Source: Tetrahymena thermophila SB210 (taxonomy: Eukaryota; Ciliophora; Oligohymenophorea; Hymenostomatida; Tetrahymenidae). Taken from it: a DNA stretch of 64,000 nt. Location of the stretch: positions 124,001-188,000 of the forward strand of contig NW_002476535.1 in NCBI RefSeq assembly GCF_000189635.1. Direction: 5' to 3'. The notes below the pieces were generated by a model, which worked only from the letters and a program-made list of their open reading frames with translations, was not told where the DNA came from and did no database searches. The position numbers and the translations under genes were made by a program. Position 1 is the stretch's first letter; each line of letters opens with the position of its first letter. Below, piece by piece: positions 5,233-38,026 of the stretch.

Positions 5233-7003
5233 ATGAATAGATCAGTAAGCAATTTAATCAAGCATAAAATTGAAAGCTAATTTGTTATGCTTTCTTATGA
5301 TTAATAAAACTAGATTAATCGCTCATTTTTTAAACATTTTTTGCTTTATATTAAAAGGGCCTTTCTCCAAATGGATCAACCAAATACGATTCTTACCAAA
5401 AAGATGTTCTTATATCTACTCTTTAAGCTTAAATTTTTGAAATGAGATAAAACGAAAAGGACTTCCAAGAACTTAATCATCATCTTAAGAATCTTGAGCA
5501 CAGATATAACATTCTTTCTGAAGAAAAGGTAATCAATTTTTACTTAAAAATAAAAATTTATACTTATTTGCTCTATCAATCTTTTTTCTAAATCAATAAA
5601 ACTTTTAGAAACTAGTCAAATGATTTAAAATCCTTATTTAATTTAATACAATAAAGTCTAGAAACGAAATAGATGCTAGAAATAAGCAGGCTGCTCAAGC
5701 AAAAACCATCTCTATTTACAAGAATGATATCGAAACTCTAAAATAAAGTTTAACTGAGAAGCACATAGAACTTTAAGAATTGCGTGCTGAAAATATGGCA
5801 GTTAAGGAAATATCAGACAGACGCTAATTAGATATTCAAAGGTTAAAAAATGAATTATAACACACCTCTGACTCTTTACAAAGAGTGAACAATGAAAGAA
5901 ATATTCTTGAGCAAGAACTTTCTTATTAAAAAGACGAAAATAGAAAGCTTCGCAGTGAAAAAGATTAGATCTCAAACACCTGCGAAACTCTCATTTAGAA
6001 AAATGCCCAACAAGAAAAATTAATAGCAGAGTTAGATCAAGACAGAGAACTTCAAGAGCAAGAAAGAGTAAAGCTCTTCTCTCAAATAGATTAAGTAACA
6101 TGAAGAGAAAATTTTAAAATTATTTATCTCTTTGTTTTGTAAAATATCATCAAAAAAGAAATTAATTAATAAATAAATAAATTTATTAATAAAGATTAAT
6201 GAGTGAAAGATTCTATCAAAGCAAAGAGAATTTTATTGGATATTTTTAGTAAATATTTTATTTAAATAAAAAAGCTTTAAGTTGAATTGCAAAACGTTTA
6301 AGAAAGTGTTAGATTCAATAACTTACAAATAAATGATAAAGATTCATAGATCAATCAACTTTAAAATGAAGTTCAAGAATTATAAAGTATCCGCGAAAGA
6401 TTAAGATCTGACAACAATAATTTATAGAGAAATTTATAAAATGAAAACTCAAAGGGTCTTGAATATATTTCTAAAATTTCTGCTCTTGAATCTTCTTTGA
6501 AGTAATCAATTTATCTATCTAGCAATTTTAATAATATTAACCTCTCTATAACAAATAGAACCAAAGAATAATTTATTGATGAATTGAAGAGAGATCTTGA
6601 TAAGCTCAATTTACTCTACTCTGAAAGAAACGAAAATGTTGATGCTTTGCAATTAGAGTTAGAAACATATAAAAGAAGCTACGAGGGATTAGTTCTCCAA
6701 AATTAAAAGGTAAAAATCAGCTATCAAATGCTCATAATTTGTTTTATATTATTATCTAAAAATTGAATCTTATAGAAATTAATTATAAATATATTTTTTT
6801 AAAACATAAAGGTTATTTAAGAAATGGAAAGCTTCTAAGATCAAGATGAAAGAGTAAGATCCATTTTAAATAGAAGAAGTATTGTTAGGGATTTAAGATA
6901 AAAGCATGATAATTTTATTAGATAAAGCTAAAATGATGCAAGCTATGGCAGAAATGCTCTATCTCCTACACTTTAAGGCTCTAAAGTTAATGATGCATAC
7001 TGA
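5233..7003 (+). CDS. coiled-coil protein, cytoskeletal or basal-body type
   Basis: Five exons (5233-5244, 5358-5528, 5657-6094, 6275-6709, 6812-7003) join in phase to 415 residues. The first exon encodes only MNRS; the intron starts GTAAGC. Apart from a short N-terminal SGLSPNGSTKYDSY segment and a Ser/Arg-rich tail, the protein is almost continuous heptad-repeat coiled coil rich in Leu, Glu, Gln, Asn and Arg, for example LENLQ-like blocks and ELRAENMAVKEISDRRQ. No catalytic motif, membrane helix or signal peptide is visible. Such proteins in ciliates usually belong to basal bodies, cortical fibres or vesicle tethers, but nothing here decides between these. The 180-base third intron could hide a small alternative exon. 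The gene ends at TGA 7001-7003. Confidence 0.8.
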
Positions 7004-7935: not shown

Positions 7936-8628
7936 TCAATACTTGTAGCATTTATCAATTAATTTGAATTCAAACATCTTGAAGAATTATCTTGAGTAAC
8001 TCTTGCAAGCTGCAATTTAGTTAGGACCAGTGTAAAGAGAGCAAACATATCCGACTAAATCGTATTGGGCTTATTATTAGATATCGTCAGTGTGTTAACC
8101 ATTAACAACAATCCATGGTACGTATTTATGAGCGGGATTAAGAGCATCAGTAGCTTAACCTGCATTCAAAAGTAATTACTTACCTTCATTTCCAGTTTAA
8201 CAAGCTTAGACGTTGGCTTGGTCGGCAGCAGGGATGTTCATATTCTTGTAACAAAGTTAAGAAACTTTATCGAAGTTTTCGTTATTAGCTTCAATAGCAT
8301 TTTCGACGCAAGTAATAAATTCAAGGCTCTTAGCTGATTCAATGTGAGCAATAGCACAAGCTTCTAAGATATTACCATAACATTCGTTTGTACCATGTTG
8401 ACAAGTTACTTATTTAGTAGAACTAGTCTTAGCATTACCATAAGGGAACAATCTAATGTTAGCGATGGTTTCAAAACCTTCAACGTGGATAGCAGGAGTC
8501 AACTCTGTTTCGATAAAGTTTTGGCATCCAGGACATAAAGATTCGTAATACAAATCAACTACAACTCTGTCATCAGCATAAGATGACAAAACAAGCAATG
8601 CAGCTAAGAAAATGTAAATTTTGTTCAT
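7936..8628 (-). CDS. GILT-family secreted/lysosomal thiol reductase
   Basis: Single exon, 230 residues. It begins with a clear signal peptide (MNKIYIFLAALLVLSSYA). The mature part starts VVVDLYYESLCPGCQNF, placing the thioredoxin-like CXXC active site at Cys32-Cys35. The family signature CQHGxxECxxNxxxxC is intact at residues 76-91. A PWIVVNGQHTDD segment further on matches the usual GILT 'PWI-VNG' region. GILT proteins reduce disulfides of proteins in acidic lysosomes or phagosomes; in a phagotrophic ciliate a food-vacuole or secreted digestive role is plausible (inference). G+C is noticeably higher than in neighbours and codons look biased, suggesting strong expression. The stop is TGA at 7936-7938; earlier TAA triplets are Gln. 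Confidence 0.93.
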
Positions 8629-9824
8629 TTCTTTATCTCTTTGAAGATTATATTTATTAATTTAATTATTTTTTAATTATAATTTTTGGTAAAGAAACAA
8701 AAAACATATAAATATCAGTACTTTTTGTAAATCTTGACAAAAAATTACGTTTAGAGACAAACTTCTATCTTAATCACTACTTTTAACTAGTAACAAACAC
8801 ATTATAAGATGTAATTAAAGAAATGTTTAATCAACTTGTCAAATATTATTTAATCATTATGAAATATTAATCAAGAGCCATAGATCTAAAAATTCTTTTA
8901 CATTTTTAAATAATAGATGCAATATCTTTTATAAAGATTTCTATTTCTCCACACAAAATATACTTATTACATTTTAAAATTTAATAAAAGATGTAAAAGA
9001 TTTATATTGTTTTTTATTTTCAAATCCTATAATCTATTTTTCTAACCACATAAGTTTGTGCTGATAAACAGAAAAACATTTTTTTGAGTATTTTTATTAA
9101 ATGCTTAAACCATTTATAAAGGAAATTTCAGTGAATTTATTTAAATTTTATATCATTAAAAACTATTTAAGATCAATTTTTAAAATTTTTTTGTTTAATA
9201 AATCAAATATTTTTACTTTAGTGTCTAGAGATTCATAATCTATTCAAAATTTTTGATTTCTTTCAAAATATTTATTTAATTAAATACAATTTTTCTCCAT
9301 AATATTTCTTGATAAACTAAAGTAAACCATTTTTTATAGATGAGTATATTTATTTGTATTTTAATTTTAAATGTATTGAATTTTTTAGAGTATCTTTTAT
9401 TTTCCTTAATTTACAAAATAGTACATCATTTTGAAATTAATTAAATCAAATAAATGTCATTTTAATTTCAATAAAAAGAACAACACCAACTAAAAACAAA
9501 AAAGTATTTATAAAAAATAAATTATATTTTGTAATGATTTTTTTAGAATGGAAATTGAATTAATTTTTTTGATCCTTCATAACTACAAAAAAGAATAATT
9601 AATAGTAATAGTTTAGTATAATATTTAATATCTTACATATGAACTAAAAAAGTTATGTTTATAGTAAATTTTTAATTATATGCTTTTAAATTTTATTTAA
9701 ATTTAGATAGAGAAAATGAATCTTTTATTAAAGATACTGTATATTAATAAATCATAACTATTGCTATTATATTAAATTAAATTAAATTCAATTAGAATTA
9801 AAATATACACAGTTTTAGTTTTAG
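8629..9824. other. intergenic spacer, divergent promoters
   Basis: AT-rich spacer between divergent starts. It has homopolymer A/T runs and an ATTAA-repeat patch near 9770-9785. No coding frame seen. Confidence 0.6.
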
Positions 9825-12820: not shown

Positions 12821-15800
12821 ATGAAAAAATGGATAGAAAAAGGAAAGTAATTCCTAAAAAAGCTTGAAGAAGATCATGATAAAAAGAAAAAAGAGGCAAA
12901 ATAGAATTAGGATAAGTAACAAAGCGAAGAAGAAAAGAAAGAGTCCATGATGTCAAAATCATTAGATGACGATAAGATGTATAAATTAGGGTAGTTATTG
13001 CTAAATCCAACTCCTTTAGAAGATAATAACAAATTTAAATTGCAGAATTCAGCATTTTTTAGACAGCAAATTAACTATATTTCTCTTTGCGAGTAGCTAA
13101 GAAAAAATAATCACGAGATCGATTTCTAATCATAAGGATTTTAGTAGCTGCTGAAATAAATTTACAATCAAGATCAAGAGTATTAGGCACCAATAATTGA
13201 GCAAAATCCACTTTTTTTGATAGGAGTAGTTGGTTTTCATCACAAAAAAGGTTCAGTAGTAGAGTTTTTCCATCCTTCAAATATGAATGATTTAAATTAA
13301 GAATAGCAATAGTATATTTTGGATTCTTTACCAAACTATTGTATGCCAGATGCTATTCACAATAAAAATGAAGATTACGTTTACTTCACTCTTACAATAA
13401 AGCTAAATAGCAATGAATACACTCTAAATAATTAAAATGAGCAAAGTTAAAATTTAGTTTAAACTACAAAGTAAGTTACACTGTTTGGTGTTTCATATTT
13501 TAAATAAATAAAGGTAATTTGCATTCAATTTATATTTAAAATTTGTTACTTTTTTAGAAGAGTATTTTGGTTTTTTAATTATAATAAATCCCATTTTCAA
13601 ACGATGCAGAAAAAAAAAAAATTTTATAATTTTTGTTTAAAGTTTTTGATAAATTTATTTGATGTAAGCACAGCAAAAATAGATTATTTTAAATCATTCA
13701 GAATCAAATCTTTGAAAAAGGGAAATTAGATGATAAAAATGCTTCAAAAATTAAAAGACTTCCAAAAATATTTAAAATAATTTAGGTTAATGAAAAGATG
13801 AGATAAATGGATAAAGAATTAACAAGAAGTCATTTGCAAAAATCTTTATTTGTATTGAGCACTGTACCTTTACAAGGCTATATTATGGGTAGACTTGAGC
13901 CTACCACTAAGGCCTACTTTGATTAAGAAAATATAACAGACTATGAAATACTCAAATGTGCTTATGATAATATGAATTTAACTCTTAAAAATAATTAAAA
14001 TATTTAAGAAAGTGAGATATATATTGGCACCTCATTAAAGACTATGATTCACTTCTTTAAAGAAAAGACTTTAGTTATTTTAAAAGCTTTATTACTTTAA
14101 AAAAAAATTTTGGTTTACTCACTGCACAGCTGCTCTACCAGTAATTTTGTAATGAGTTTGATTAGCTTAATACCCGGTCTTTCATTTTTCAAGTTCAAAA
14201 GTAAATATATAGATATAATATAAAGTGCTCTTGGTGAGTATGGATTACCTTTAAGAGTTTTTAATGAGCAAGACTGTCCTTTGGAATTATACTTTACGAT
14301 CTAATAATTAGATAATATGGATAAATATAAAGGTTACCTTATAGGTACTACAAACTAGTTAATAAGGTCTCATAAAAAAACTGGAGCTGATTTAATAGTT
14401 GATTTGGATACAAACTAACTCATCATCTAAAATGAAGCTATAAAGACATCTCTTTAACTAAATTCTGAAGAAAAAAAATTTATGGAAGGTATCACTAAAA
14501 CAGTCAATAAAGTAGTTAGTGAAAGTGATAAAAACTGGAAAAATATGGAATACAGTTAAAACGATAGCTCATTTATTGGTAGTAATGATTGGATTAGATA
14601 ACAGTTCACTAAATACATCATAGATTTGCTTTGTGAGATAGAACTTGTAAAAAAAAGGTAATAATATAATTTACTATCAAAACAATATCAAATAGATTAA
14701 TAATTTAATTGATTAATTTACCTCACTAAAATAAAAAAAGATAAACTTTTTTTAATTTGATGACTGTATAAGATATTTTTTTATAATTAATTTCTAATTA
14801 TTGCTCATTAAAAAAATGTCATGTTGATAAATTATTTCAAAAATAAAATAAGATTAAAATAAATAATTTTTAATTAATTATTTTGAAAATAAATTTATTG
14901 GAGAATATTAACTCTTCTTTTTCTAAATTAAAATACACTTTTTATTTAATATTAGGTATAGAGATTTCTAAGATGAAATATCAAATAGACTAAAAAGAAA
15001 ATCAAGCTTAGGAAAAAAAGATGATGCAAGAATTAACCAAAAGTTAGATAAATTAGAGAATAACTTAAGTCACAGAAAAGTAAATTTAAAGATTAGATTA
15101 CATTTTTAGTTAATTTATTACAAATAAATAGGAAAAAGATGAATTTTAAATAGAATCAGGTAATCAAGATCATTAAATTCAATAATCTTAGTCAACTACT
15201 GCTTCAACTATTTCAGATTTAGATAGTAAATAAGAAATTACTTAAAAAAGGAAAGTCAGTAATCTCTCAGAAAAAAGCTAAAACAGCAATGATGAAGAAA
15301 TAATAAATGAGTTATTTGATGATTTTTTAAATTTTGACTCTGATGAAGAAGAATAGTAAGCAAGTTACGGTCAGCAATCAAATAAATATGCTAAATTTAA
15401 TTAGCTTGATGGAGACACTCTATTAGCTTTTAACATAGATTCAGAAGTATCCAAAACAGAAAAAATTTTTAAGCAAAAGAAAAAACAGTTGAAAATTAGT
15501 TATGCAACTTTAAAGAAATACAATTTTAAATTTTTGAAAGAATTCTTTCTAACTGAAAATTATAAGTACTGGTTACTTCATCACGATGATTAAATATATT
15601 TACGTAGTATCAATTGTTCAGAGTTGACTTAAAGGTCTTGCATTACTCTTGAAAGTGGCTAAATATTCTTTGGTTCAATGTAAAATGGGGAAAGAAACGG
15701 AAAAGGTTTTTTGAAATTTTGATCTTAGAAGTAAATTTTTATTTTATAATAAATATAAAAATAGGTACAACATTTGATTAGATTTAAGGAAAGATTGAGC

Positions 15801-16477
15801 AATGTGAAAATTATGAAAATGATATGAAAAATGGAAAAACTACAATTGTAACCTTAAAAAACGACTATTACTTTGAAGGAGATTTTATTGATGATTAGAA
15901 GCAAGGTTTTGGAAACTTAGTCACAGATAAATTGAAATATTGTGGTTCTTTTAATTTAGACAAGTTTAATGGTTAAGGAACTTTAGTAGATAAAGATTAA
16001 AGCTTATATGAAGGAGAGTTCTAAAATAACATGAAAAATGGAATGGGCAAATATAGAAGTGGAGATAGCTCTATCAATTACGTTGGTTAATTTATTGACG
16101 ATCTTTTTTCTGATAAAGGTTAGCTTGTGAAATCTAATGGTGATGTTTACTGTGGAGATTTTAAAAAAGGGTAAATGCATGGTCAAGGTGAATATTAAAG
16201 TGAAGGTTATTCATATACTGGAGAATTCTTGCATAACAAATTTAATGGCTAAGGATTTTATAAAGACCTAAAAACAAATAACATTTATTAAGGAGAGTTT
16301 GTTGAAAATCAGCTTGATCCTGAACAATAACATATCATTAAATATCATAATGGAGATGTCTACAGTGGATTTATTAAAGATTGGTAACCTAATGGAGAAG
16401 GACTTATTTGTTACAAAGATGGAAAAATAGTAAAAGGAATTTTCGAAAGTGGAATAATAAAATAATAATTTGAGTGA
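12821..16477 (+). CDS. AVL9: AVL9-domain protein fused to C-terminal MORN-like repeats
   Basis: Exons 12821-13513, 13702-14657, 14956-15079, 15132-15705 and 15765-16477 join in phase to 1,019 residues. After a charged N-terminus, an AVL9/DENN-like domain begins: LIGVVGFHHKKGSVVEFFHP, LPNYCMPDAIHN, EDYVYFTL, LFGVSYFKQI, SLFVLSTVPLQGYI, then LLLQKKILVYS and SLIPGL. AVL9 acts in late exocytic transport from the Golgi. The C-terminal third has at least seven MORN-like units (YEGEF.NNMKNGMGKY; YCGDFKKGQMHGQGEY), which often bind membranes or cortical structures. Two points are uncertain. The 298-base intron 14658-14955 could be an intergenic gap, with AVL9 ending at TGA 14719-14721 and a MORN gene starting at ATG 14972. 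The last intron begins GTTTTT rather than GTAA. Codon use and the canonical 52-base intron at 15080 favour fusion. Confidence 0.75.
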
Positions 16478-37953: not shown

Positions 37954-38026
37954 TCCCCTATAGTCTAGCAGGTTAGGATAGAAGGTTTTCACCCTTCAGA
38001 CCCGGGTTCAAGTCCCGGTGGGGGAA
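37954..38026 (+). tRNA. tRNA-Glu (UUC anticodon)
   Basis: The sequence folds as a complete cloverleaf. The acceptor stem pairs TCCCCTA (37954-37960) with TGGGGGA (38019-38025), leaving discriminator A at 38026. The anticodon stem GAAGG/CCTTC encloses the loop TTTTCAC with anticodon TTC at 37988-37990. The T arm is CCGGG-TTCAAGT-CCCGG, which also forms the B box; the A box lies in TAGTCTAGCAGG. There is no intron. It would read GAA and, by wobble, GAG. The gene stands out as a G+C-rich island in AT-rich spacer. Confidence 0.97.

Follow-up and report, generated by a model that had tools for sequence, protein, structure and literature searches.

An AVL9-domain gene with a probable C-terminal MORN-repeat array in a ciliate

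The window considered here is the whole 64-kb stretch of DNA that was analyzed (C39:124001-188000 of a 101-Mb, 445-contig ciliate assembly), and all coordinates below are positions within it. On the plus strand, a five-exon model spanning 12821-16477 yields a single 1019-aa protein under the ciliate code (code 6, TAA and TAG translated as glutamine). The whole coding sequence contains 49 TAA and 17 TAG codons, with 23 such codons within the Avl9 region, and the sole TGA is its end. Exon 1 (12821-13513) encodes an N-terminal extension and the start of the Avl9 domain (the longin part; Avl9 profile positions 2-82), exon 2 (13702-14657) the remainder of this domain (the DENN part; profile 83-377), exon 3 (14956-15079) the beginning of a linker, exon 4 (15132-15705; 44.1 bits, one frame open) a Ser/acidic linker with the first MORN-type unit, and exon 5 (15765-16477) the remaining MORN array with the stop codon TGA at 16475-16477. 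These exons are separated by predicted introns of 188 bases (intron 1, 13514-13701, GTAA..CAG with a candidate acceptor), 298 bases (intron 2, 14658-14955), 52 bases (intron 3, 15080-15131, GTAA..TAG) and 59 bases (intron 4, 15706-15764), with GC contents of 0.181, 0.131, 0.135 and 0.119, respectively, compared with 0.25-0.28 for the exons and about 0.17 for the flanks. The preliminary description is borne out in its coordinates, its 298-base intron, its linker with Ser/acidic patches and its MORN array, although that intron is one of four that the model requires.

The donors are GTAA in three introns and an unusual, non-GTA GTTTTT in intron 4. The latter intron interrupts a MORN unit on the plus strand directly after GKG. 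Use of a GTAAAA donor at 15673 for this intron would cost the protein a well-formed MORN stretch (NGERNGKG). A frameshift, with an extra base in the T run at 15706, could also explain why the frame changes from exon 4 to exon 5; it was rejected, by reasoning on the sequence, because it would either leave an AT-rich, intron-like stretch coding or need an intron too, when one 59-base GT-AG intron suffices. With intron 1 held fixed, 162 of the 1872 enumerated GT/AG combinations are open, so that an open joined frame by itself proves little.

A Pfam scan of the neighborhood, covering 10 of the 28 coding segments of the window, identified a GILT-type thiol reductase domain at 7942-8649 on the minus strand (E 5.5e-30), a Lebercilin-like match under the curated cut-off at 5654-6091 on the plus strand (E 4.9e-7) and a strong Glyco_hydro_76 match in the minus-strand segment 59234-60328 (E 7.8e-32). 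Since Glyco_hydro_76 is known mainly from bacteria and fungi, horizontal transfer of this segment is a possibility to consider. One neighboring segment searched against the PDB gave no match. The sole tRNA gene in the window according to ARAGORN is a tRNA-Glu (ttc) at 37954-38026 on the plus strand.

A Pfam search with 1018 aa of the joined protein (the final Glu missing) places the Avl9 domain (PF09794) at aa 132-542 with E 2.5e-78 and 263.8 bits against a curated cut-off of 22, covering positions 2-377 of the 379-position profile, so that the region belongs to this family. Over the same region, the SPA and Afi1 profiles match more weakly than Avl9, yet above their cut-offs, and the DENN profile falls below its own. 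A profile search of the assembly detected Avl9 once, as two exon pieces. In PDB, no convincing match to the AVL9 part was found, and two oxysterol-binding-protein-related chains (E 0.58 and 0.62) were taken as chance hits. A tblastn search for relatives of exon 2 in prokaryotic and viral contig collections found none (17 and 7 pattern matches), a result that, given the composition of these collections, says nothing on ciliates. Single-sequence AlphaFold predictions for single exons were unusable, with mean pLDDT of 40.5 for exon 5 and 32.5 for exon 2. LFGVSYFKQI and KSLFVLS flank a loop whose final residues are LTRSHLQKS, in which Arg273 (codon 13825-13827, plus strand) lies just ahead of KSLFVLS; the loop contains further arginines. 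By the position of this loop, and through what we take to be the corresponding motif of human AVL9, Arg273 may correspond to human R111 and is a candidate arginine finger. Such a finger has been placed between longin strands beta4 and beta5 in the yeast (R116) and human (R111) proteins (PMC12803157).

The MORN array occupies aa 758-1015 (15630-16462, plus strand), is divided by intron 4 and comprises up to 11 units. In the Pfam search of the joined protein, MORN (PF02493) scores 53.1 bits against a cut-off of 22.5 (E 1.8e-14), which identifies the array as a member of this family, with four stretches passing individually at a permissive E of 10. MORN repeats have been defined as tandem units of approximately 23 aa with GxG and YEGEW-like motifs (PMC7725318). 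Here, 11 contiguous hand-drawn units of 22-25 aa each tile the region free of gaps and seven of them begin with GxG, consistent with the earlier count of at least seven MORN-like units; some units are degenerate, with irregularities of differing extent in the first, second, third, seventh and tenth. The periodicity stands out against shuffled sequences, with 84 identities at lags 22-24 versus 50.9 +/- 6.6 (a value reached by 0 of 5000 shuffles) and eight [YF].G.[FIYW] motifs versus a mean of 0.93 and a maximum of 6. The net charge of the array is -10. A PDB sequence search matched the MORN part to the solved MORN1 proteins of Trypanosoma brucei, Toxoplasma and Plasmodium (6t6q, 6t4d, 6t4r and others) with E about 1e-14. 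The T. brucei protein shares the array but, as described, consists of MORN repeats only and lacks the AVL9 part (PMC7725318).

With respect to the connection between the two domains, the sequence directly shows that both are present and in which order they follow each other on the same strand, that joined models stay open and that the assembly has only one Avl9 gene. One gene very probably encodes a 1019-aa AVL9 protein with a MORN array as its tail; this joined gene is favored by intron-like stretches rich in AT, by the 308 bases that separate the two coding parts (14646-14955), fewer than in any of the nine strand-switch gaps of the window, and by the independent precedent from Plasmodium falciparum discussed below. 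The splicing itself is predicted from the sequence, and the point of ambiguity is exon 3. Both readings of 14956-15079 are open, as the preliminary description had stated, though openness discriminates little; codon use does score the joined frame higher, as was also claimed there, but the margin is weak, with 12.4 versus 9.5 bits in one scoring (a difference of 2.9 bits) and 9.2 versus 6.6 in a second.

One alternative, which we consider unlikely, keeps a single gene and reads exon 3 in the other frame, with intron 2 running from a donor at 14647 to an acceptor near 14963 or 14972 (plus strand) and an exon unbroken to 15705, such that intron 3 becomes coding. This variant belongs to the 162 open combinations, saves one intron (there being no intron 3) and uses the frame that a splice-blind segmentation chose, unbroken over 14955-15707. 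Its frame scores 2.9 bits lower, however, and it has to read through 15080-15131, which is intron-like in its GC content (0.135) and GTAA/TAG ends and scores -3.0 bits over the 17 codons of 15081-15131 in that frame. As joined models are available, among the 162 combinations, in both readings of exon 3, the fusion is independent of this choice.

Two neighboring genes, an AVL9 gene ending at the TGA at 14710-14712 and a MORN gene starting from an ATG, are improbable. The comparable frame scores of exon 3 and the segmentation, which took the MORN-side frame unbroken, are also compatible with such an arrangement, and the separate 5' end proposed near 14972 does have an ATG, the exact position of which is 14973; the stretch that it starts (14973-15080) is coding-like, with 8.7 bits over 36 codons versus 0.3 at the 99th percentile of noncoding stretches. 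Against this arrangement, two stretches that it would require to be coding score negatively, namely the extension of AVL9 into intron 2 (-2.3 bits over 18 codons) and 15081-15131 in the MORN-side frame (-3.0 bits over 17 codons); in addition, 14658-14955 has a GC content of only 0.131, and P. falciparum has both domains in one protein. Moreover, only approximately 260 bases would be left for a 3' UTR, a promoter and a 5' UTR, compared with 806-8312 bases in all nine gaps of the window at which consecutive coding segments switch strand, lengths that include UTRs and missed exons; same-strand gaps in the window range from 56 to 4322 bases (n=18), so a short intergenic distance can occur. A further consideration is the exon 4 block YNFKFLKEFFLTENYKYWL (aa 721-739; 15519-15575, plus strand), a possible AVL9 C-terminal block located downstream of the point where the Pfam Avl9 profile stops, which presumably resembles a block located just after the final DENN helices of human AVL9. 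If this likeness is true, the intron in question lies inside AVL9 itself, and two separate genes are no longer tenable.

Genome-wide comparisons provide a weak control. The exon 4 part is unique in the assembly, matching itself only. All 19 DENN matches and the one other SPA match are more than 20 kb away from the MORN matches listed, the shortest distances among the listed matches being approximately 28 kb (C154) and 37 kb (C308). This proximity control is weak in that the matches are exon pieces and that the main MORN list, for which 150 of the 672 candidates were scored, does not include the array studied here, which appears only in a second MORN search.

The single AVL9-MORN fusion thus holds up as the better reading compared with two genes, but the suggestion that the combination is unfamiliar does not. 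Table 3 of a 2011 study lists P. falciparum PFE0560c as "Atypical Golgi transport protein (AVL9 ortholog) with MORN domains, putative", with MORN as the standard domain and Avl9 as an additional one obtained by a context method (PMC3090354). As presented there, this method gives a positive weight to domain pairs observed in Pfam 23 and a penalty to unobserved pairs (PMC3090354), which implies that the Avl9 and MORN pair had been seen before the 2011 table. Elsewhere, the same protein is listed as "MORN repeat protein, putative" (PMC3486833). In the literature searched, which covered few subscription papers, no report of an AVL9-MORN protein from a ciliate was found. Probably, then, the locus extends to a ciliate a domain combination that is known and little studied. 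PFE0560c likewise comes from an alveolate and combines Avl9 and MORN in one protein; the difference is that, in PFE0560c, MORN is the standard domain and Avl9 is predicted from context, whereas in the ciliate protein Avl9 is the stronger match. This strong match suggests that the pairing is real and possibly old in alveolates.

Comparison with better-studied proteins offers hints to function. Yeast Avl9 and human AVL9, described as DENN GAPs, share with the ciliate protein the Avl9 domain and putatively the arginine finger, an arginine being present in the loop where it would be expected, but the C-terminus of yeast Avl9 is predicted to be disordered (PMC12803157) where the ciliate tail is a MORN array; the word "MORN" is absent from the main text of that report. 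For yeast Avl9, Arf1 GTPase-activating protein activity has been measured and recruitment by Rab8 reported in the same January 2026 preprint (PMC12803157). Following that work, the "DENN-like late-secretory factor" of the preliminary description can be sharpened to a putative Rab8-recruited Arf1 GTPase-activating protein. As for the tail, alsin/ALS2 (RLD, DH/PH, eight MORN repeats and VPS9) similarly joins a regulator of membrane-traffic GTPases to a MORN array, and loss of either its MORN or its VPS9 region abolishes Rab5 exchange in vitro, as does blocked self-association (PMC8773251). The catalytic domains of the two proteins are unrelated (alsin being an exchange factor, not a GAP) and their domain order is different, so alsin is a functional analogue only.

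Taken together, these parallels lead us to propose tentatively, with somewhat less than even confidence, that the ciliate protein acts on late secretory vesicles as an Arf-GAP equipped with its own MORN scaffold. The AVL9 (longin-DENN) part would be brought to post-Golgi secretory vesicles by a Rab8-type GTPase and would there stimulate GTP hydrolysis by Arf1 via the arginine finger, thereby freeing the vesicle of Arf1. The MORN rod would self-associate and/or grip a protein partner, gathering the GAP into clusters or keeping it where it acts; the model for this step is alsin, in which the MORN region is needed for self-association and Rab5 exchange activity. All three properties, namely Arf-GAP activity, Rab recruitment and MORN-mediated assembly, are predictions for the ciliate protein. 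C-terminal dimers have been found in three MORN1 proteins (PMC7725318), and MORN arrays are now viewed chiefly as protein-protein modules. Given that the Avl9-type DENN GAPs are described as monomeric in the preprint (PMC12803157), an oligomer-dependent GAP would be a departure, and a partner-binding role of the MORN array is equally open.

Alternatively, the MORN array might serve mainly as an anchor to a membrane or the cortex, regardless of what the AVL9 part does, which appears unlikely. Junctophilin MORN regions have been linked to plasma-membrane targeting and T. brucei MORN1 is located just under the plasma membrane, but the same account reports that T. brucei MORN1 interacted with single phospholipids and was recovered together with PE without binding membranes, vesicles or liposomes, and cautions against inferring lipid binding from MORN repeats (PMC7725318); the negative charge of the array also argues against a membrane anchor. 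Tethering to the cortex or alveolar membranes, as put forward in the preliminary description, is thus a possible, putative role for which MORN repeats are poor evidence. Still less likely is a Rab exchange factor like the classical DENN proteins, with no Arf-GAP activity, as membership in the DENN superfamily and the SPA and Afi1 matches would allow, since AVL9 exchange activity was undetectable in the assays of PMC3383995 and Arf-GAP activity was measured in PMC12803157. As a whole, one AVL9-MORN gene whose product would function as a scaffolded Arf-GAP is the best explanation, which we favor by a slight degree.

The AVL9-MORN gene does not amount to a new class of system. It could be speculated, with low confidence, that the fusion predates the split between ciliates and apicomplexans and that a MORN rod replaced the disordered AVL9 tail in alveolates, giving rise to a self-assembling Arf "eraser" at defined secretion sites (the cortex, the basal complex or the base of cilia), through which the removal of Arf1 would be spatially patterned. 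Now that Arf1 GAP activity has been reported for Avl9, the predicted ciliate protein, from a group whose laboratory species are amenable to tagging and gene knockout, would represent a testable GTPase regulator with a built-in MORN scaffold.
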